Shown one piece after another: positions 9,053 through 26,913 of a stretch of DNA of 64,000 nucleotides. Source of the DNA: Halobacteriovorax sp. GB3 (GTDB lineage: Bacteria > Bdellovibrionota > Bacteriovoracia > Bacteriovoracales > Bacteriovoracaceae). Both the position numbers and the translations under genes were made by a program. A model generated the notes under the pieces. That model made no database searches and had not been told where the DNA came from. It saw only the letters and a list, made by a program, of their open reading frames with translations. The stretch is from positions 682,001 through 746,000 of the forward strand of contig NZ_JAQSLN010000003.1 of NCBI RefSeq assembly GCF_028649655.1, read 5' to 3'. Every line of letters starts with the position of its first letter. The first letter of the stretch is position 1.

Positions 9053-9166
9053 ACGTTTATTCTATCAAAAATGGCACTGACTTTACATTGGAAGATCTTT
9101 CCCTTTAGTACAACCACTCTTATTACAGTAAACGATTGCGCCGAAAGGGATACTGGAGGCCATCTA

Positions 9167-9700
9167 ATGCTCGAACTATTTAGAAAATCAAAAGTACTTA
9201 AAGAAAATCTGGCGACAAAGCGATCAAAGCTTAAACGCTCATTCTTATCAAATAAAGAAAATCAATGGATTCTTAAAGACCGTTATTTACTTGAGTCTTT
9301 TAAGTCATTTTTTGATCGACTGAATGAAAAGCAAGTTACAAGGCTATTAAAAGAAAGGCCCATCGCTTTTATTAAGGCCCAAGGAAAATACGCCTGTGCC
9401 CTTAGTGCACAAAAAGACTTTCACATTATCATGATATTTCCAGAAATAGAAAAAATGCTTAAATCTCCTCTGCCAGAAGAAGGACTTGCAATTTTGGCGC
9501 ATGAGGTAGGTCACATTTTTTATCAACATTCCTATAGAGACATTGATCCCCTTGAAGCACAAATTGAAGCAGATAGCTTTGCTTGTGATATGGGTCTTAC
9601 TCTTCCCTTAGAAAGTTTTCTACAGAAATATGAACATACAATAGAAGGAAAAGTTAGGATTTCTAGAGTTACTTGCCGTCACTTTAATGAAAATCACTAA
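9167..9700 (+). CDS. Zinc-metallopeptidase-like protein (HExxH)
   Basis: 177 residues. Near the C-terminus a gluzincin-like signature is visible: LAILAHEVGHIFYQH followed 18 residues later by EAQIEADSFA, the usual third ligand and downstream Asp. No signal peptide or membrane segment, so a cytoplasmic or non-classically released protein. ATG 9167 is preferred because GGAGG ends 7 bases before it; an upstream in-frame ATG at 9071 lacks a ribosome site. Stop end overlaps the opposite gene by 4 bases. Protease activity is inferred from the motif only. Confidence 0.75.
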   Translation: MLELFRKSKVLKENLATKRSKLKRSFLSNKENQWILKDRYLLESFKSFFDRLNEKQVTRLLKERPIAFIKAQGKYACALSAQKDFHIIMIFPEIEKMLKSPLPEEGLAILAHEVGHIFYQHSYRDIDPLEAQIEADSFACDMGLTLPLESFLQKYEHTIEGKVRISRVTCRHFNENH

Positions 9701-10245
9701 TAAAGATTTGCCTTAGCATTTTCAAAGTCAATATTAGGTTCGTCACTCATATGAAAAGTATCAACACCACAAGAGACAAACTTAACCTTATCAATTCGAT
9801 TTCTCTTAGTAGAAAAAAGAACGAGAGGGTAGCCTACACCATTGTAACAAAGCGACTGAAATCCTTCTTGTACACGTGCTGAATCGTGACCAGTGACAAG
9901 ATTATAAACAGACCTTGAATCAAGACTAACAAACTCGCCCGAACGTAGAAGCTCTAAGAGTTCATCATTTTGCGCAAATTCATAAGTATTGACATACTCT
10001 CTTCCCATATCAAAGAAGATCTTAGTCATTAGTAAATTATTAGCGACACAATTTTCACAAACGGGCTCATCTACTTGGCAATCTTCAAAATCACCACATA
10101 AACGATGACAAAAATCTCCATCTTGTTCAAAACAAGCAACGTTCAACTTTTTCTCAAAATCAAATGTCCACTCGTTATAAAAAACGATGGCCTTAGACTG
10201 AAGCGAAAAAAAGAAAATAAGTAAACAAAGAAACTTCATCGACAT
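9697..10245 (-). CDS. Exported Cys-rich protein, unknown
   Basis: 182 residues with a signal peptide (MSMKFLCLLIFFFSLQSKA). A dense Cys block at about residues 38-70 (CFEQDGDFCHRLCGDFEDC, then CENC) suggests a disulphide-bonded periplasmic or surface domain. The ribosome site GGGGAAATC before ATG 10245 is inside the end of the upstream gene, which it overlaps by 10 bases, so translation is probably coupled. Last gene of the 9.7-17.1 kb exported cluster. No known family recognised. Confidence 0.7.
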   Translation of the reverse strand: MSMKFLCLLIFFFSLQSKAIVFYNEWTFDFEKKLNVACFEQDGDFCHRLCGDFEDCQVDEPVCENCVANNLLMTKIFFDMGREYVNTYEFAQNDELLELLRSGEFVSLDSRSVYNLVTGHDSARVQEGFQSLCYNGVGYPLVLFSTKRNRIDKVKFVSCGVDTFHMSDEPNIDFENAKANLY

Positions 10246-12752
10246 GATTTCCCCTTTTTAAACTTCTTCACACAGCGAGCTGGAATATAACCGTACTTCT
10301 TGTAAGTATCATAAACATCACTTGGATCTGCAATCCAATCACGAGGAATATTATGAGGATCTTTTAAGGCCTTATAAAGCCTAACAAAAGCACGCACGAG
10401 AAAATAAACAGGACCAACATAGTGGCTCATTCTCGTTACAGATAAAGCAACAGCTTCGAAATCTAGTCGGCATCCTGCGCAAGCAGAATAATCATTAACA
10501 GGTGTTCTTCGAACATCGCTTCCTGAATACGCAATAACAGTATGCTCTTCTTTTGAATGACAAGTGCTTGCACTCACACCAACAAAACGAAGTGAATCGT
10601 ATGGGTTATTGGCCGTATTCGATACGGAGATCTTACAAGGGATTCCAAGAAGAGGTCCAAAATCAGCATGTAACCCAAGAGAGATTCTCTCAGGGTCCAT
10701 TGATGGCTCATACTCGATCTTCCCTTCTTTAACGAGTTGTTTAAAAGAAACAACCCGACCAGGCTTTAAATCAACTCGCCCATAGATAAGTCCAGGAGTA
10801 ACAAGAGTTGCAGCGGCCTGCCCAATATCACTTACTAAATGAAAGATCATCGATTTCGTTTTAAACCACGGATCATAAACTTTACAAGCGACTCTTTCAG
10901 CATAAGGATTAAAAGCTTCATTAGAGCTAACCTCACCTTTTTTCGCCCATAGTCCACGTGCATAAGTTGCAGCACGATAGATATCTACAATTGAACGAGC
11001 AAGACGTCTTGCACAGTGAGAAGCATCGATACAGACAATATTATCAAAGTTCGGTTTCTCACTAAAAAGAGAGTAACTTAAAAGAGGCTTCAAATTAGGA
11101 GTAAGCTTTGAAAGTTGAATCGCATCGTATTTTGATTCAACATTATTCTTAGTAAAGACTTTCTCTAAGTACCATTGTTGATAACCTTCTCTTTCAAGTA
11201 CAAATTGATCATCAAAGATCTCTTTTTGACGAAGACCAGAGCATAGCCTCACCACTTCTTTAGAAAAGAGATCAAAATAAGAAAAGAGTTCTGAAACATT
11301 TTTCTTTGAAGCGTTAAAAAGAACATCGTTTAAGACATTGGTCTTTCTTAATATTTCAAGATCACCAGAAACACTACTAAAAGTCTCATGCGAAAGAAAG
11401 TAATACTCACTACATAAGAAGTAGAGTTCATTTTTTAGCTCACCTTCACGAGAGTTCTCCTCATCTAAAATCTTTTGAAATTGTTTTTGAAAAACTGTTT
11501 CAAAAGATTGAAGTGGAAAATGTCTCGAAAGAATATTCACAAAGTTTACGGCCTTCAATAAATTATTCTTAATTTGGTTTCTACTTGATGATAAATTAGT
11601 TGCAAGATTTTCTCCCCACTTTGTAGCGGCATCTCGAGTACTAATTTCCATAATATTTGTATTTACATCAGTAAAAGGATCAACAAGGATATCGTCTTGA
11701 GGTCCATCAGGAACACCATCAAATACATCCATATCTAGAGAGGCTTTTTTGAAATCGGCCTTCGCAAACTCTCTCATGATTCCTTTTGAAAGGAGTTCGC
11801 CTCCACAAGTTGGACTTGTGATACTTTCACAACCATTACTAATGATCATGACAAGGTTCTCGATATCGAGACCCTTGAAGATATTATAATATTCATTTGA
11901 AAGTGATTTCATTATTTCGGCATGACGAAAGGCCCATGAAAAGTAAACTTTCATGCTATACCAATAGTCAAACCCTTTACTTTGCCAATCCTTTTCGTCT
12001 AATCCCGTTAGATCAAATTGATAAGCGGCAACTTTTAGATTTTCTTGTGAGTTAAAGTCATAGCAATCTCCTAAATGTTGATCGATATTATCGAGGGCAA
12101 CAGCAAATTGCTCATAGGCCTTACGAGTAGGCTTTGTCCCAAAAAGATGGGATTGAAGTGGAGAAAATTTCTTGAGATAATGACAATAGAGCTTTTGCCC
12201 GCTCTTATCAAAATCTTTTTTTCTCATATAATTGTCTTTAGAGTGGAAGTTATCCAGCTTGTAATTATCGAGAACTTTTTGAACTGATGAGACATCTCTT
12301 TCAGAGTTATCCCAAAGTTCTTTGATGTAATCATTGAGCTCATCACACTCATCTTCATTAGAACATGTTCTAGAATATTTTAAGTAGTCATCAGGAATAT
12401 GACCCTCAATTTTCGTTGTATTAGAAACGAGAAGAGGAAGGTCGCGATTCATCATTTTCTCATGAATCATTTGTATAAGATTAACGACCGAATAACGAAA
12501 GAGCTCAATCCCTCGTTTTGTTGTTTCACCTACAGGGCGACCAGTAACTTTTGCAAGCCTATAAATGGCCTTTCCCGGATCAATATTGTTAACAATAACA
12601 AAAGCAGATCGAGTAGGATTTTTAGAATCAAGAGCACACTGAGCACGGTTAGTGAAACGAAGAGAGTTTATACCAAACTCCTTCGCCTCACTTATAGAAA
12701 AAGCGCAAATAATAAAAATGAATATGAATCTTATGCTCAGATTTTTCAACAA
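10236..12752 (-). CDS. Large exported protein of unknown function
   Basis: 838 residues with an N-terminal signal peptide (hydrophobic IRFIFIFIICAFSISEA). The start is TTG, either 12752 or 12749; AGGA lies 4 or 7 bases upstream and the second fits better, giving MKNLSIRF. The middle is helical and charged. The C-terminal 250 residues carry many Cys (for example CIDASHC, CAGC) and a basic tail (KKFKKGKSC). No domain recognised. It sits 6 bases after the preceding gene and overlaps the next, so it is a core part of the cluster. Confidence 0.75.
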   Translation of the reverse strand: MLKNLSIRFIFIFIICAFSISEAKEFGINSLRFTNRAQCALDSKNPTRSAFVIVNNIDPGKAIYRLAKVTGRPVGETTKRGIELFRYSVVNLIQMIHEKMMNRDLPLLVSNTTKIEGHIPDDYLKYSRTCSNEDECDELNDYIKELWDNSERDVSSVQKVLDNYKLDNFHSKDNYMRKKDFDKSGQKLYCHYLKKFSPLQSHLFGTKPTRKAYEQFAVALDNIDQHLGDCYDFNSQENLKVAAYQFDLTGLDEKDWQSKGFDYWYSMKVYFSWAFRHAEIMKSLSNEYYNIFKGLDIENLVMIISNGCESITSPTCGGELLSKGIMREFAKADFKKASLDMDVFDGVPDGPQDDILVDPFTDVNTNIMEISTRDAATKWGENLATNLSSSRNQIKNNLLKAVNFVNILSRHFPLQSFETVFQKQFQKILDEENSREGELKNELYFLCSEYYFLSHETFSSVSGDLEILRKTNVLNDVLFNASKKNVSELFSYFDLFSKEVVRLCSGLRQKEIFDDQFVLEREGYQQWYLEKVFTKNNVESKYDAIQLSKLTPNLKPLLSYSLFSEKPNFDNIVCIDASHCARRLARSIVDIYRAATYARGLWAKKGEVSSNEAFNPYAERVACKVYDPWFKTKSMIFHLVSDIGQAAATLVTPGLIYGRVDLKPGRVVSFKQLVKEGKIEYEPSMDPERISLGLHADFGPLLGIPCKISVSNTANNPYDSLRFVGVSASTCHSKEEHTVIAYSGSDVRRTPVNDYSACAGCRLDFEAVALSVTRMSHYVGPVYFLVRAFVRLYKALKDPHNIPRDWIADPSDVYDTYKKYGYIPARCVKKFKKGKSCR

Positions 12753-12758
12753 CTATTC

Positions 12759-13304
12759 CTACTTCATTGTACAACCAGTCGCCTGGCTCATGATTGTTGT
12801 ATAGAACATGATCATTGATTCATCAGCAGGAGTGAAACCTGATCTTGTTCCTCCACCTTGCCTAATGAGTCCATACATATAAGTGTTAATCGCTTTGTAA
12901 ACTGATACAGGAACATCAATTGTTTGAGTACATTGCCCCTTAGCATAACGAAGTGTTACACCCCAGCTAATTCCCTCGTCACAAGTATCACATGTTGTAT
13001 CGTATCCATCTTTACCATTACCAGTAATGATAACAGCACCAGATCCGTTTGTATTATTGAGGTTCTGACCAACAGTAAATTCTACTTCGAACCCACCATA
13101 ACGATTTGTTACAGAGTGAAGAGTACAAAGACTTCCGTGACAAGCAACAGCGGCATCGCGATCAACTTGCATTAGGATATCGGCATCAGAGTAGCGCTGT
13201 TCAAAATCATATGTATCTTCACCACCACCAAAGTAGTCATCGATATCACCAGAGTAAGTTACAAGAGAGAAACAGCTTAATGCTAAAATAAACATTTTTT
13301 TCAT
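12759..13304 (-). CDS. Exported Cys-containing protein, unknown
   Basis: 181 residues, signal peptide MKKMFILALSCFSLVTYS, then an acidic Gly/Asp/Tyr-rich stretch (DDYFGGGEDTYDF) and a beta-rich domain with Cys pairs (CHGSLC, CDTC). Good ribosome site (AGGAG 7 bases before ATG). The gap to the preceding gene is 9 bases and to the following gene 6. Looks like a small surface or periplasmic structural protein; no family recognised. Confidence 0.72.
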   Translation of the reverse strand: MKKMFILALSCFSLVTYSGDIDDYFGGGEDTYDFEQRYSDADILMQVDRDAAVACHGSLCTLHSVTNRYGGFEVEFTVGQNLNNTNGSGAVIITGNGKDGYDTTCDTCDEGISWGVTLRYAKGQCTQTIDVPVSVYKAINTYMYGLIRQGGGTRSGFTPADESMIMFYTTIMSQATGCTMK

Positions 13305-13313
13305 AAAGGACTC

Positions 13314-14531
13314 CTAATTAGCTCCGTTTCCATGGATTGGACCACAGACACTTCGACATAATCCAACATAGTCATGTTGATGTATTTTTTTATATTCAGT
13401 ATTTGAGTGATAAGAACTTACATATCTTTTCACTTGATCACGATCAGTGAAAGTCATTTGAAAACAAGCATACTTACTTGAGACTCCGTTTAATCTAACA
13501 ATAGGATCACTTGGAAGACCAGGCAGAGGAAAACTCAATCCATTTTGCTTTAAGGCCTGAACGTGACAGATATCAACCTGATCACCGGAGAAGTTAAACT
13601 CCTCATCATAGCTTTCATAAAGATTAGAAACTGTGATTTTTTTAAGATCGTGCTGGCGTGCAAGAGATAATTCGTTCTCTTTGAAATATTGTCTAATAAC
13701 ACACGCTTCTTTATTTTGGATTGTGACACTATCATTGTGGATCTGTCCTGCTCTAAAATCAAAAAAGCTCCCCTCTTTTTCAAGTGAAACTGTATCATAA
13801 TTTAAAAGACCATCATAAACAGAGTCACAATAAAGAAGATACTTAGACTTAAGCTTACTCATTGACGGGTAATCAACTTGTGTTTGATAGAGATTTGTTG
13901 AAATTGTCGAATTCAATCGAAATGAAATCGAATATTCCTCAAGACCACTTGTATTAGTGAAGCAAGTATCAACAAAGTACTCTGCATTCATTCTCTCTGA
14001 ACCAATTTCAAAAGAAAGACCTTGATCTGTAGCGAGTGTTTGGAAAAATGGATCTGTTCCAAAAACTTGAAATAGATTCTTCTTTGCTTGAAGGTTTAAA
14101 GAAGTCGTATTACTAATTTCTTCTGTATAAGGATTAAACGTTGAAAGTTGCCCACTCATAAAGTCTGCTAAATAAAGATCTTTTTTGTCAAAGCAAACGC
14201 AGTTTGAAGAGTTTCGACATTCAACATATTCGTTAAACTCTTCCAAACGTCCCTTTTCAAAACAAATTTCTTCATCCAAATCTTTCTGTCTAAGACCTGC
14301 ATTACAGACATAAGGTTTTGGGATTCCCTCATCTCCAACAGCATTACACTTACCATAATAGTCGAGATCATGTTGGGCCAGATGTCCCCAAAGTCCAGAG
14401 AAACTAATACAAATCTCACCATAGTGAGCACCACTACCACTGTGACATACGACAGTTTTATAGTCAGGACATGCTAAAGAGCTTAGGCCTAAAACAAATA
14501 AAATAAATGGTGTTAGTAAAAGTTTTTTCAT
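13314..14531 (-). CDS. Exported Cys-rich protein, paralogue of the 16.2-17.1 kb gene
   Basis: 405 residues from ATG 14531, whose signal peptide MKKLLLTPFILFVLGLSSLA is textbook. The frame extends 19 codons upstream without a good start, into the previous gene. The mature protein shares ordered motifs with the first gene of the cluster: VCNAGL..., GSERMNAEYFVDTCF (other copy GSERYGAEYFVDVCF), LKSKYLLYC (other copy LKVKSLLYC), FFDFRAGQI and a late CxxRxxFKE. It adds an extra C-terminal region of about 100 residues. Function unknown; disulphide-rich surface or periplasmic protein is likely. The gap to the upstream gene is a single base. Confidence 0.75.
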   Translation of the reverse strand: MKKLLLTPFILFVLGLSSLACPDYKTVVCHSGSGAHYGEICISFSGLWGHLAQHDLDYYGKCNAVGDEGIPKPYVCNAGLRQKDLDEEICFEKGRLEEFNEYVECRNSSNCVCFDKKDLYLADFMSGQLSTFNPYTEEISNTTSLNLQAKKNLFQVFGTDPFFQTLATDQGLSFEIGSERMNAEYFVDTCFTNTSGLEEYSISFRLNSTISTNLYQTQVDYPSMSKLKSKYLLYCDSVYDGLLNYDTVSLEKEGSFFDFRAGQIHNDSVTIQNKEACVIRQYFKENELSLARQHDLKKITVSNLYESYDEEFNFSGDQVDICHVQALKQNGLSFPLPGLPSDPIVRLNGVSSKYACFQMTFTDRDQVKRYVSSYHSNTEYKKIHQHDYVGLCRSVCGPIHGNGAN

Positions 14532-14532
14532 C

Positions 14533-16128
14533 TTAAAAATCAAAATCGATATCGAAATCATCGTCAGATGAATCGTTATCGTTCCCACAGTTCAAATGAG
14601 GAAGGTCATTAATATGTTGTTTACCTGCAACCATAGACCCTTTTTTAAGACCTTTAAGATCAACAGCTTTCCCATCTTTGTAAGTAAATTCAACAAAGAG
14701 CTCTAGATTGTGTTTCTTCGCAGAAATGCAATCATCACCAGAACACATTCTTTGAAAATATGGCGGCCAATAAATATTTTTAAACACTCTATTGATAGAA
14801 TTAAGCGCCCTACGTACCCCTATAAAGCCATCTCCAGAAAATGAAATGCCAGAAATTCCTTCAATCTCAGGAAGTCTCGAAATATTTCCAATCACTCCAA
14901 GAAGTGGAATTTTTGCAATGCGACCACCCTCGCGATTGATTCTCGGAATATGATTAGGGCGAAGTCCAAGTCTTCTTTTAATCATTCCTTTGAAAGTCAT
15001 GTAATTAAGTTCTTGATCGCTTAGATCAATCTTAACGACATACTTTTTCCCCTCTTTTAGAAGTCCCTTTTGGATCTTTGCACCAAGACCATGAAGCATT
15101 CCTCTCCACATAGCAGGGGCCATTCCACCGTCATACCATGAGTAGAGAAAGTCTGGTCCCTTTTCTGTAATTTCAAAAAGACGATAATCTCCAACAACTG
15201 GCTGAGAATAAAGACAGCTCGAAGAACAGAGTCCATCTACGCATTTTTGATCACAAACATTATTCACATAGAGTGGAACAATAATTTCATCGTACTTTGA
15301 AAGTTTACTATTAATTTCAACTTTTCCAGGAAGAACTGAAGTAACATTCCAATCAACTGGCCACGTCGGCCTCTTTGTTCCCGTCTCAGTATTCGTTTTT
15401 AATAGTCTAGGATCAGCATTGACTGATGCTCTAAGATTTAATTGCTTAAGTGCCGTTAAATCAGTTGATGTCCCCGTTGTATCCCCTGCTTTATAAATTG
15501 CAAGAAGACCAAGAACATCTTGATAACTAATTTTATTTTCTTTTAAAAACTCTTCTTCAAGACAACTTCCGTTGATATCAACGCTAAAGACGATCGAAGA
15601 TTCAGCGTGGGGTTTAACAAAACAAAATGGTCCCTTAAAATTAATCGCGTGATCAGATATTCTCTCGACCTGACAACCCGGTTGATTTGAAGGCACCGAA
15701 AGACCTGCTTTAGCAAAGTCTGTTACTTGAAATGTTAAACACTCATTGAGAAATTTTCGACGAGAAAGTAGACGTTTGTAGATAGACTCTTGATCCGATA
15801 GGTCTTTAAGTGGAGCATTCTCAATTTTACACTGACTATCTTTTGAGGATAGCTGATCGTTGTAACTATAAGTTAGAAACTCATCACTTAAAACGAAGTT
15901 TTCTAGTCCAACAGAGAACATAAGAAATTTGTCCTCAGCTGCCGTTTTAATACAATTTTCAATTCCAATAAATGGTCTTTCACCTAGAACTTTTAGATCG
16001 TTGTAAAAATAACGAGTATCATTAGCAGGATCGAGTGCGATATTAACTTGAGTTGGCGCATTGATGCTTGAACAAGCAAAGCTTATTCCTCTTAAAAACA
16101 AAAAAAGAACAATTATTGTTTTATTCAT
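14533..16128 (-). CDS. Exported protein with acidic C-terminal tail, unknown
   Basis: 531 residues. Signal peptide MNKTIIVLFLFLRGISFA followed by a Cys. Scattered Cys including a CDQKCVDGLCSSSC cluster near residue 315, then a lysine/arginine-rich segment, ending in a strongly acidic tail (SSDDDFDIDFDF). The tail might bind calcium or act as a recognition end, but this is speculation. Follows the first cluster gene after a UUCG-loop hairpin. No family recognised. Confidence 0.72.
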   Translation of the reverse strand: MNKTIIVLFLFLRGISFACSSINAPTQVNIALDPANDTRYFYNDLKVLGERPFIGIENCIKTAAEDKFLMFSVGLENFVLSDEFLTYSYNDQLSSKDSQCKIENAPLKDLSDQESIYKRLLSRRKFLNECLTFQVTDFAKAGLSVPSNQPGCQVERISDHAINFKGPFCFVKPHAESSIVFSVDINGSCLEEEFLKENKISYQDVLGLLAIYKAGDTTGTSTDLTALKQLNLRASVNADPRLLKTNTETGTKRPTWPVDWNVTSVLPGKVEINSKLSKYDEIIVPLYVNNVCDQKCVDGLCSSSCLYSQPVVGDYRLFEITEKGPDFLYSWYDGGMAPAMWRGMLHGLGAKIQKGLLKEGKKYVVKIDLSDQELNYMTFKGMIKRRLGLRPNHIPRINREGGRIAKIPLLGVIGNISRLPEIEGISGISFSGDGFIGVRRALNSINRVFKNIYWPPYFQRMCSGDDCISAKKHNLELFVEFTYKDGKAVDLKGLKKGSMVAGKQHINDLPHLNCGNDNDSSDDDFDIDFDF

Positions 16129-16153
16129 ACATCACCAAATCAAGCTTATAATA

Positions 16154-16173
16154 GGTAGGTCCGAAGACCTACC
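16154..16173 (-). repeat. Inverted repeat with UUCG tetraloop between cluster genes
   Basis: On the minus strand GGTAGGTC-TTCG-GACCTACC, a perfect 8-bp stem closed by a C(UUCG)G loop, one of the most stable RNA hairpins. No T-run follows on the minus strand, so it does not look like a simple terminator. It lies 14 bases after the stop of the first cluster gene and before the rest, a good place for a 3'-end stabiliser or partial attenuator. Confidence 0.7.
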
Positions 16174-16186
16174 CGTTTAAAAAAAT

Positions 16187-17110
16187 TTACTGAGCGCTTT
16201 CGTTAGCAGAAGAGTAAGTACAGATTCTTGCCTTTTGCTTTTTCCACTTTCTTACACTTGCAAGACCATCTCTATTTGATTCTTTAAATTCATATCTAAA
16301 GAAACAACCCTTAAGGTCTTCACGAGTTGATTTTGAAGGAAAAGTAATCGCTTGAGCGTTGTTAAAGTCTGTCCAATCAGTTTGATCGTTAATTGTTACT
16401 CCACCATCTTTGTTTTTACAGTAAAGAAGTGACTTAACTTTTAGACCAGCTAGATCTTGGTAAGTTTTAGCTGTGTACCAGATATCATCAGTTTCATCTA
16501 GGTCCCATACGTGAGTGTCTGGTGAATTAGATGTTCCAAGATCAGTAATTGTAACAGCTCTTGTTAGTGACCAGTTAAGGTAACCAACGTCATAGCTAGT
16601 TGGGTAATCAATTTGAGTTGCTCTAAAACAAACATCAACAAAGTATTCAGCACCGTATCTTTCAGAACCCAGAAAGAATTCTAGACCAAGAAGTTGTGTA
16701 GAAAATGCATCAGCAGAATCAACAGCAAATCTGTATCCGTTAGTAAGAGCTGTCTTTGTCATAGTCTGTACGTTTGTAGCAGCTTCTCCGTTATCACTCC
16801 AGTTAGCAACTTTTGCATTGAAGTAATCAAGTCTGTACTCACCGTCTCCAGACATAGATTGTCCTAGTGTAAATCCACCAGTACAAACACAGTTACATGC
16901 TTGACCGTCTTTACACTGAGCAGGGTTACAAGATTTCGTCGTGTCACCTCTCTCGTAACAAACTCTATCTTGGTAAGGCTTGTGCTTTAAACCAGCGTTA
17001 CAAGCGTACATTGAGTTACCAGAAGAAGTAACTTCAAATTTGAATGCAAGGTTTACAGCGTGAACATTGAAGGCCATGAAAAGGGCCAAAAGTGGTAATA
17101 GTGCTTTCAT
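16187..17110 (-). CDS. Exported Cys-rich protein, first gene of the cluster
   Basis: 307 residues. Signal peptide MKALLPLLALFMAFNVHA. Next comes a Cys-rich block (CNAGL, CYERGD, CNPAQCKDGQACNCVC), then a beta-rich domain with GSERYGAEYFVDVCF and LKVKSLLYC. It is a shorter paralogue of the protein at 13314-14531. The ribosome site GGGAGA precedes ATG 17110 but is inside a stem (see the 17114-17158 entry). Being first in the cluster and followed by a stable hairpin, it may be the most highly expressed member. Function unknown. Confidence 0.77.
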   Translation of the reverse strand: MKALLPLLALFMAFNVHAVNLAFKFEVTSSGNSMYACNAGLKHKPYQDRVCYERGDTTKSCNPAQCKDGQACNCVCTGGFTLGQSMSGDGEYRLDYFNAKVANWSDNGEAATNVQTMTKTALTNGYRFAVDSADAFSTQLLGLEFFLGSERYGAEYFVDVCFRATQIDYPTSYDVGYLNWSLTRAVTITDLGTSNSPDTHVWDLDETDDIWYTAKTYQDLAGLKVKSLLYCKNKDGGVTINDQTDWTDFNNAQAITFPSKSTREDLKGCFFRYEFKESNRDGLASVRKWKKQKARICTYSSANESAQ

Positions 17111-17113
17111 TCA

Positions 17114-17158
17114 TTCTCCCGTTTGGATTTGTGAAATGTTTTGTATTTTGGGAGAATA
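17114..17158 (-). promoter_or_regulatory. RBS-sequestering stem before exported cluster
   Basis: On the minus strand ATTCTCCC (17158-17151) can pair perfectly with GGGAGAAT (17121-17114), with a 29-base loop. The second arm contains the ribosome site of the gene starting at 17110, so pairing would block translation. It could be a target for an sRNA or protein that opens it. Confidence 0.55.
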
Positions 17159-17369
17159 AATATCCTTTAGAAACGATCTTGAAAAGAGCAAAAAACAGCT
17201 TTTCCCAACTTTTGTGAACTTTAGGTAAACTCTAGTTAATACCGGCAAAGATTACAATAACTTACACAATCAAGAGCAATAAAAATGTTCTTAACTTTTA
17301 TTGAATATTTTATATTCTCTTTAAGGAAACTGATCTTAATCATGCTCTAGGTGTAACGTTTCTTACCTT

Positions 17370-22605: not shown

Positions 22606-23508
22606 ATGAACACAAGATCTTCGACATTAGCAGTTACACTCTTAACTCTCCTTTACTCTATGCAGGTATATTCACTCGATAAAGTCGTTTATGGTGAAGA
22701 CAATCGCATTGAAACAAGGGAAGCGTCGCAGAGGATTCAAAATATTGCAAAGTCCGTTGCGGCCCAAGTTCCCATGTATGCTTTTCGCTTTGGAGTGGAA
22801 GAAGGAATGGCCCAACTTCGATCCAAAACTCTTGAACAATTGGGTATTTGTTCTTACGAGAATTTCTTTCGTCAAACGACAGCTGCCGAGTGTAGTGCAT
22901 TTCTCGTATCTCCAACAAAAATTCTAACAGCAGGCCACTGCATACAATCTCAAAATGAATGTAATAACAAAAAATGGGTCTTTGATTACAAAGTTGGAAA
23001 TGGGTATTACGCAGGAAAAAACATCAAGGTTTACGAAAAAAACGTTTACTCATGCAAGAAACTAATTGCTCAAAAAGCTGAGTACTTCAATGGCAAAGAT
23101 ATCGTTGACTTTGCACTGATCGAACTAGATCGCCCCGTAACGGATAGAGCTCCCTTAAAATTAAACCTTCAATCGAAGATCACAAAACAAGATGAACTCC
23201 TTATTATCGGGCACCCGAGTGGACTTCCACAAAAGATCGCCGATGCTGGAACATTAAAATCACTAAATCCTTCTAAAAGCTACTACCTTGCTCGCCTTGA
23301 TGCCTTTCAAGGAAACTCTGGCTCTCCTGTTATTAACGCTCAAACCGAAGAGGTTGAAGGAATTCTCATCTCAGGTGTAGAAGACTATGAAAGCGTTAAG
23401 AGAAATGGAAAGAGATGCTTTATCCCAAAGATCTGTACAACACAAGATCACTGCGAGGGTGAAGCTGTTTTTAAAATAGAAGAAGTTTTAAACTACACTA
23501 AAATTTAA
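22606..23508 (+). CDS. Exported trypsin-like serine protease
   Basis: 300 residues with a signal peptide (about 1-23). Chymotrypsin-fold triad: His in LTAGHC (about 107), Asp in DIVDFALIEL (about 168) and Ser in FQGNSGSPVIN (about 238). Several Cys may form disulphides. An exported protease of this class could act in the periplasm or on prey or host protein. Starts 60 bases after the thioesterase stop. Its stop end overlaps the opposite lipoprotein gene by 11 bases. Confidence 0.88.
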   Translation: MNTRSSTLAVTLLTLLYSMQVYSLDKVVYGEDNRIETREASQRIQNIAKSVAAQVPMYAFRFGVEEGMAQLRSKTLEQLGICSYENFFRQTTAAECSAFLVSPTKILTAGHCIQSQNECNNKKWVFDYKVGNGYYAGKNIKVYEKNVYSCKKLIAQKAEYFNGKDIVDFALIELDRPVTDRAPLKLNLQSKITKQDELLIIGHPSGLPQKIADAGTLKSLNPSKSYYLARLDAFQGNSGSPVINAQTEEVEGILISGVEDYESVKRNGKRCFIPKICTTQDHCEGEAVFKIEEVLNYTKI

Positions 23509-25687: not shown

Positions 25688-26683
25688 CTAGTGACAGAAC
25701 TTCCAAGAGTTCATCGAATTAATCGATAGTCTGATACTTTTTACACAACTTTTCATTAAAGGTGTTCCATTCATCTTTAATGCAATTTGAAAAGGAGCAT
25801 CCTTCGGACAATAGCTAGGCTTTGCAATAAAACAATTTTTTGTTTGAACAGCTTCATTAAACTCATCAATTGAATCAGCAAGAGCATTTTCATATGTCTT
25901 TTCAAATTGCTCAGTTGATTCAAAGCGACCTGGGTAAAGATGAGTTACAGCAACGGCATCTCCCTGAGTAAAGAAACCACTTCCACCAACAACTCCTTCC
26001 GTACCAGCAGAAGATTCAATCTCATAGTGCATGATTGAATTTGCTACATAAGGAAGAATTACCGCTGTTTCACTACTGTGAGTTTTTAACATTTGCGACT
26101 CACAACCGACTTCATTAAAACCTATTCTCTTGCAATTTGCCTTTATCTCGTCATCACTCACAATACGATCCGGGTGCTGGTGCTCGTGAGCAAGACCTAG
26201 AATATGTCCAAATTCATGAACCATCGTGGCCTTTCTTGTAAAAGATGTATTCCCAATTCCCTCTAAGGACATATTAAATGGAATCTTTTTATTAATATAA
26301 GTTGGACCAACATAGGCCCAGTTCCCCTTAGACTCTAAGAAAGTAATTCTCACATGAGGTCTTACAGAAAGCTCCTCAGGAATATCATCTGGACTTGAGT
26401 AATATTCAAAGTTGATATTGGCAAATTTTGACCACGTATTCATCGATTCTTTAACTTCTTCGACAAGTTCGGCCACAGTCGTTCTTTTAGAATGAGCAAA
26501 ACCCGACAAACGAATTGAGTCATCAATAATTGTTACTGGAATTGTATAACCAAGAGGCCAGTTGGCACCTTTTAGGGCAACGATATCACTGCTCAAAAAT
26601 CCTTCTTTAGATGCAATGTTATCTTGTTTACCACAAGAGAAAAGCCCTAAACACATAACCAATAAAACACTTAACTTTTTCAA
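25688..26683 (-). CDS. Astacin-like (M12A) zinc metalloprotease lipoprotein
   Basis: Zinc protease signature ATMVHEFGHILGLAHEHQHP (HExxHxxGxxHE) near the middle of the chain and a Met-turn SIMHYEI about 55 residues later, which defines the astacin group. The N-terminus carries a lipobox: TTG 26683 gives MKKLSVLLVMCLGLFSC with Cys17, and AGGAAG lies 5 bases upstream. An ATG at 26719 is open but adds 12 unlikely residues. Probably an outer-membrane-anchored, surface or periplasmic protease. C-terminal Cys residues may form disulphides. Confidence 0.87.
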   Translation of the reverse strand: MKKLSVLLVMCLGLFSCGKQDNIASKEGFLSSDIVALKGANWPLGYTIPVTIIDDSIRLSGFAHSKRTTVAELVEEVKESMNTWSKFANINFEYYSSPDDIPEELSVRPHVRITFLESKGNWAYVGPTYINKKIPFNMSLEGIGNTSFTRKATMVHEFGHILGLAHEHQHPDRIVSDDEIKANCKRIGFNEVGCESQMLKTHSSETAVILPYVANSIMHYEIESSAGTEGVVGGSGFFTQGDAVAVTHLYPGRFESTEQFEKTYENALADSIDEFNEAVQTKNCFIAKPSYCPKDAPFQIALKMNGTPLMKSCVKSIRLSINSMNSWKFCH

Positions 26684-26913
26684 CTGACTTCCTTTGTTTT
26701 TTGTTGATGAACAAAACATATTGGAAGCTCATTACTATTGTTATAAGTAGTGAATATTTTTACCCACTATGTAAGTAAATGTAAGTTTTATGTTTTTAAC
26801 GCACCATTCTTACACTATGAAAATCCCTAGTTTCGCCTGTCAGAAAGCTAACGGCCCCCTTCATTTTTACAGAATCAATGGTAAGAGAGTGAAATTAAGA
26901 AAATAATATCACT

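Follow-up and report, generated by a model that had tools for sequence, protein, structure and literature searches.

Six tightly packed genes on the minus strand of Halobacteriovorax sp. GB3 (positions 9697-17110 of the window, that is, of the whole 64,000-nucleotide stretch analysed) represent a cassette of Bdellovibrionota whose five core families, g1, g2, g4, g5 and g6, form, as judged by gene content across genomes, one heritable unit that is gained or lost as a whole and varies in gene order. Its products would most likely form an envelope-exposed or extracellular multi-protein assembly held by disulfide bonds, a reading to which we give an even chance, with soluble secreted factors ranking next. 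Much of the Bdellovibrio genome consists of unknown exported proteins, and five unknown families now become one heritable unit.

Gene layout, conservation and distribution

The six minus-strand ORFs lie where an earlier, sequence-only reading of this DNA had placed six adjacent genes. Read along the minus strand, they are g1 (16187-17110, 307 aa), g2 (14533-16128, 531 aa), g3 (13314-14531, 405 aa from its ATG, the start used here; the listed GTG at 14588 would overlap g2), g4 (12759-13304, 181 aa), g5 (10236-12752, 838 aa, TTG start) and g6 (9697-10245, 182 aa). Intergenic gaps from g1 to g6 are 58, 1 (g3 from ATG), 9, 6 and -10 bp; except after g1, the genes almost touch, which agrees with the tight spacing described in that reading. 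The 10 bp by which g6 overlaps the end of g5 have a counterpart in most relatives, where the median g5-g6 gap is -4. All six products start with a strongly hydrophobic, signal-peptide-like segment, which upholds the predicted signal peptides at the level of sequence. Cys makes up 2.3-4.9% of these products, whereas 50 other ORFs of the window average 1.05% (Mann-Whitney p = 1.3e-4), and the Cys-richness formerly ascribed to five of them therefore extends to all six. g1 and g3 are paralogues (2e-12), and the closest named relative of g2 is from Bacteriovorax sp. BSW11_IV. A small protein encoded convergently to g6 (9071-9700, plus strand) carries an HExGH-type motif with a sub-threshold peptidase M48 match, and this neighbour adjoins the cassette also at two other loci (L017 and L019).

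Comparison of the neighbourhoods of g2 and g5 homologues, using broader profiles, showed that 39 of 42 loci have the complete set of five core families. Of the three exceptions, two are on short contigs (8.8 and 12.2 kb) and one (L024) has an unassigned 453-aa Cys-rich gene at the position of g6. The usual order in the family of the window organism, Bacteriovoracaceae, is g1-g2-(g3)-g4-g5-g6, that of the Bdellovibrio family is g4-g5-g6-g1-g2-g1′-cysP, g1′ being a g1 paralogue and cysP an accessory gene, and in a few genomes the two gene blocks are divergent or otherwise arranged. Genes flanking the cassette vary between genera, and its boundaries are therefore those of a module. A separate g4 profile search returned the same presence calls as g5 in 37 of 37 genomes (both present in six).

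Matches to the profile of g5, the large exported hallmark protein of the cassette, occur in 75 of 369 genomes of Bdellovibrionota and in at least eight families; a broader g5 profile matched 63 of the 293 phylum genomes with a completeness of at least 85%. The idea of a lineage-specific cluster was thus mistaken. In the genus of B. bacteriovorus HD100, g5 is found in 17 of 24 genomes, the seven lacking it being all at least 99% complete, and in the sister genus it is found in two of 14 and missing from 12. Given these absences, the cassette is not required for predation there, if those bacteria are predators, and prey contact is unlikely to depend on it. The prey-contact apparatus suggested earlier finds no support here and, in its strictly lineage-specific form, is rejected in view of both the distribution across the phylum and the absence from many relatives.

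Cassettes with the accessory gene serP, which encodes a trypsin-like protease, fall into a single clade of the g5 tree (SH-aLRT 100) that has members from three families and is separate from the main clade formed by the window's family, pointing to horizontal transfer. A plasmid, phage or viral origin was considered and rejected, as g5 has no match in the plasmid, phage and viral collections. At two loci the cassette seems to be decaying or turning over: an apparent frameshift interrupts g1 in one genome (L018, 11400-11992), and IS3-like transposase genes lie within the cassette in another case (L087, 12485-13590).

Two cassette copies are present in the genome that we take to be B. bacteriovorus HD100 (G154). 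One of them adjoins an ECF sigma factor region, presumably bd0743/bd0745 as judged by position. This site (L077-L086) has flanks that are conserved in Bdellovibrio, ECF sigma/Bd0745-like genes on one side and a 349-aa lipoprotein plus a 190-aa protein on the other, and the cargo between them differs by species: in relatives it may be one lipoprotein gene, a locus for sugar transport or other genes, or the flanks may adjoin directly. Just upstream of the HD100 cassette at this site there is a gene for an exported protein of 1051 aa that strongly matches collagen repeats (L056, 10799-13954; 1.2e-35), and a similar 973-aa gene is found at the same place in another genome (G160; L072, 11019-13940). 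The other HD100 copy is preceded by a gene whose product has 100% identity to PDB 6sd8 over 505 residues, consistent with its being Bd2924, a 505-residue acyl-CoA dehydrogenase (PMC6851490). No mention of the HD100 locus tags around either copy was found in the portion of the literature searched, and the main texts searched on predation-essential or stage-specific genes do not name these copies. Bdellovibrio and cysteine-rich proteins are both mentioned in a CASP16 paper, whose targets are unrelated. With two cassettes in a standard laboratory strain, a set of hypotheticals becomes a testable question about one structure.

Taken together, the patchy presence, the variable HD100 site and the serP clade argue, on genomic grounds, that the cassette is accessory in Bdellovibrionota and that it has probably moved horizontally.

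Codon usage and intercistronic hairpins

As a codon measure we used the fraction of C-ending codons among those for Asn, Tyr, Phe, His, Asp and Ile. By this measure g1, and to a lesser degree g4, resemble highly expressed genes in their codon usage, and g2, g5 and g6 do not: the value of g1 exceeds those of g2, g5 and g6 in 36-38 of 40-41 loci (p about 1e-9), and that of g4 does so in 33-39 of 40-42 loci (p < 2e-6). Among 55 window genes, g1 ranks 2nd, above flagellin, while g3, g5, g2 and g6 rank 42, 47, 52 and 55, respectively. In HD100, g1 is also high in C-ending codons though it is fourth in its operon, and the bias is therefore not an effect of first place. The cassette offers in this way a ranking of subunits by inferred abundance along with a natural presence/absence experiment within one genus.

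Immediately 3′ of g1 there is an intercistronic stem-loop (GGTAGGTC-TTCG-GACCTACC; 16153-16174, minus strand), and 20 of 39 g1-g2 junctions have a hairpin after the stop codon of g1. Hairpins are found at 28 of 89 junctions after g1 or g4 and at three of 102 elsewhere (Fisher p = 5e-8), a comparison that, where junctions overlap, sets coding against non-coding sequence and that includes related, hence non-independent, loci. Since the g1-g2 hairpin sequences vary between genera, what is conserved is their position. About eight of the twenty end, by eye, in at least five T and resemble leaky terminators. The hairpin after g1 would probably raise g1 mRNA above the rest of the transcript, through leaky termination or 3′-end protection.

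A further, strong hairpin at the 5′ end of g1 (17108-17162, minus strand; TTCTCCC...GGGAGAA) has a 13-bp stem and a 29-base loop over the ribosome binding site and start codon. Weaker similar pairing is possible at one other locus (L017) and the hairpin is not conserved in other relatives; it has no Rfam match either, and the idea of a conserved RNA element at the 5′ end of the cassette was rejected.

Conserved cysteines, structure searches and accessory genes

With a Cys column counted as conserved when 80% of members or more share it, g5 has 18, g2 has 12 and g6 has eight, all even numbers; g1 has four near-invariant core ones, and g4, which also has a conserved C-terminal motif, has three to four. 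Across 22 diverse g5 proteins there are 24 invariant columns, mostly Cys. These columns point to disulfide-stabilised extracytoplasmic proteins; lipobox-like or internal transmembrane segments are rare among their members.

The absence of recognised domains, noted earlier from the sequence, was borne out. None of the six proteins has a match near the cut-off in Pfam or NCBIfam, Pfam scans over 88 members of four families gave only scattered sub-threshold matches, no significant family emerged from PHROGs, and PDB sequences gave no match, with only antibody-chain and toxin-antitoxin hits at E > 0.09. AF2 models have low confidence: that of g4 (pLDDT 47, two sequences) shows strands followed by two helices, and that of g1 (pLDDT 49, four sequences) is mostly strands. 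Foldseek found no match at E ≤ 0.001 for these models. VIA-align returned beta-sandwiches, adhesin repeats and sugar-binding domains with a top Z of 5.5, which is the level reached by unrelated models, and therefore no function is drawn from them. The sequence-only reading had proposed profile and structure-based searches, which when run gave no significant family match, and had named clear homology to a known pilus, adhesin or secretion system as the finding that would count against it; such homology was looked for and not found. Shared ancestry between g1 and g2 or between g1 and g4 was rejected, as hhalign aligns only their signal peptides.

In g3, Cys/His modules (CH...H..H..D..G.C) flank the g1-like core at both its N- and C-terminal ends. 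Similar Cys/His motifs recur in unrelated secreted bacterial proteins; one search of plasmids with the N-terminal module of a g3-like protein found no match. Among the accessory genes, cysP has an exported product in which a DCAD motif and, further along, a His are both invariant, an apparently papain-like arrangement; three of nine members show a weak DUF4846 match in Pfam, and no PDB match was found. The trypsin-like protease encoded by serP has an apparently intact triad. At three loci (L022, L065 and L101), the serP-variant cassette adjoins at least one small exported protein with a CxxCH haem-type motif.

A putative disulfide-held assembly and its rivals

Two putatively abundant subunits (g1 and the small g4), a low-expressed g1 paralogue with additional modules and three presumably scarce Cys-rich proteins, two of which come from overlapping genes, would make the pattern of an assembled structure. 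In the reading we prefer, the cassette proteins would cross the inner membrane by Sec and have their cysteines oxidised in the periplasm. g1 would be the major building subunit and g4 the second; the g1 paralogue (g3, or g1′ in Bdellovibrio) may be a minor variant, for instance a tip or specificity subunit; and g5, with g6 from the overlapping gene, and g2 may serve as low-copy scaffold, assembly or cap parts. Where present, cysP or serP would process or cross-link subunits. The function is probably conditional, be it surface protection, adhesion or a niche- or prey-specific interaction, and not an essential step of predation. The surface structure suggested by the sequence-only reading agrees with the export signals, the invariant Cys and the combination of one or two apparently abundant small subunits with scarce large ones.

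Several observations weigh against an assembly. No usher, secretin, pilin, sortase or other known export/assembly gene is found in the cassette, and with no machinery for outer-membrane export and assembly of its own it must use a general route, unless g5, g6 and g2 form an unrecognised one. No reliable fold is available (AF2 pLDDT of 47 and 49, structural matches at noise level), and the high codon bias would fit an abundant soluble secreted protein too. Ranking next is a reading that we consider unlikely: soluble secreted factors, such as an abundant lectin-like g1 with helpers and a protease, would bind or help digest prey or environmental polymers with no ordered structure. The all-beta prediction of g1, whose weak structural neighbours include many carbohydrate-binding modules (Z 5.5 at most), the proteases of some cassettes and the accessory distribution are all in its favour. 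However, these module-like matches are at noise level, the core set has no catalytic family, and five families that are obligately inherited together, with one abundant subunit having a weakly expressed paralogue, would sooner be expected of an assembly.

Less probable still is an outer envelope layer, cross-linked by disulfides, which would stiffen or protect cells during one stage of the life cycle. Its model is the chlamydial OmcA/OmcB complex, which consists of Cys-rich exported envelope proteins, and the cassette would share with it Cys-rich export, an invariant Cys scaffold and one protein with the codon usage of a very abundant product. The likeness is by analogy: there is no sequence match to that complex among the Pfam families scanned, the cassette is a five-family accessory unit that many relatives live without, and the even, near-complete Cys conservation within each protein suggests internal disulfides rather than free cross-linking thiols. 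More improbable again, in our view, is an inter-bacterial or anti-phage module, acting as a secreted toxin complex or in surface defence and retained or lost depending on the competitors present locally. Patchy occurrence, multiple copies, the hot-spot location and apparent transfer between families would suit it, but no immunity-like or toxin-like gene and no significant PHROGs family were found, and every core family is exported and has kept its Cys scaffold in evolution.

Least probable of all is a distant kinship of the cassette with an appendage or conjugation system already known, be it F-type conjugation, chaperone-usher, Tad/type IV pili or curli. As with TraN, TraU and TraH of F-type systems, several exported, disulfide-rich proteins are encoded together; yet the g5 profile (22 members) compared with these three F-plasmid proteins gives probabilities of only 0.06-0.14%, about 0.1% each, and gene content and profile labels reveal no type IV secretion ATPase, coupling protein or relaxase within the cassettes or beside them and no pilin within the cassette, so this link was rejected. 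Chaperone-usher operons combine an abundant small exported subunit, a scarce large protein, a paralogous minor subunit and an intercistronic hairpin after the major subunit gene. The cassette, with its subunit of about 180 aa beside an 840-aa protein and its hairpin after g1, follows by analogy the same pattern, but it has far more Cys, and neither the six genes nor the 88 relatives have a PapD-like chaperone, usher or fimbrial match in Pfam. As for a donor-strand-completed Ig-like pilin fold in g1, the all-beta model reaches a pLDDT of 49 only, with structural matches at Z ≤ 5.5. Unlike type IV/Tad pilins, with their prepilin peptidase-type leader and N-terminal helix, the cassette proteins have Sec-type leaders followed by beta-rich or Cys-rich sequence, and no pilin or curli family of Pfam matches the six proteins or the 88 relatives of four families. 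The MAT fibre proteins of Bdellovibrio, trimeric beta-helical fibres of which 13 of 21 have an S74 chaperone domain (PMC10769870), are likewise exported surface proteins of the same phylum, and HD100 carries both them and the cassette. They differ from it in that the six genes have no S74 match in Pfam and that Cys scaffolds are not a MAT hallmark. The passages searched in the main texts on MAT fibres (PMC10769870), MIDAS adhesins (PMC11003981) and type IVb pili (PMC5430801) do not describe the cassette genes.

Returning to the disulfide-held assembly, we tentatively propose a specific form of it, with a likelihood below even: an extracellular polymer of Bdellovibrionota, rich in disulfides and belonging to a new class, would form a fibre or coat and be spread between families as a cassette, with g1 as its major and g4 as its second structural component, g3/g1′ as tip or specificity variant, g5-g6-g2 for assembly or capping, and optional papain-like or trypsin-like processing enzymes. 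The module would then be a new kind of system, although a structure may later reveal remote kinship. If true, a new bacterial surface polymer would add one more class to a short list of such systems.

Elsewhere in the window, a trypsin-like and an astacin-like protease (22606-23508 and 25688-26719) have a hydrophobic N terminus and 2.6-2.7% Cys, and both are candidate secreted predatory enzymes.
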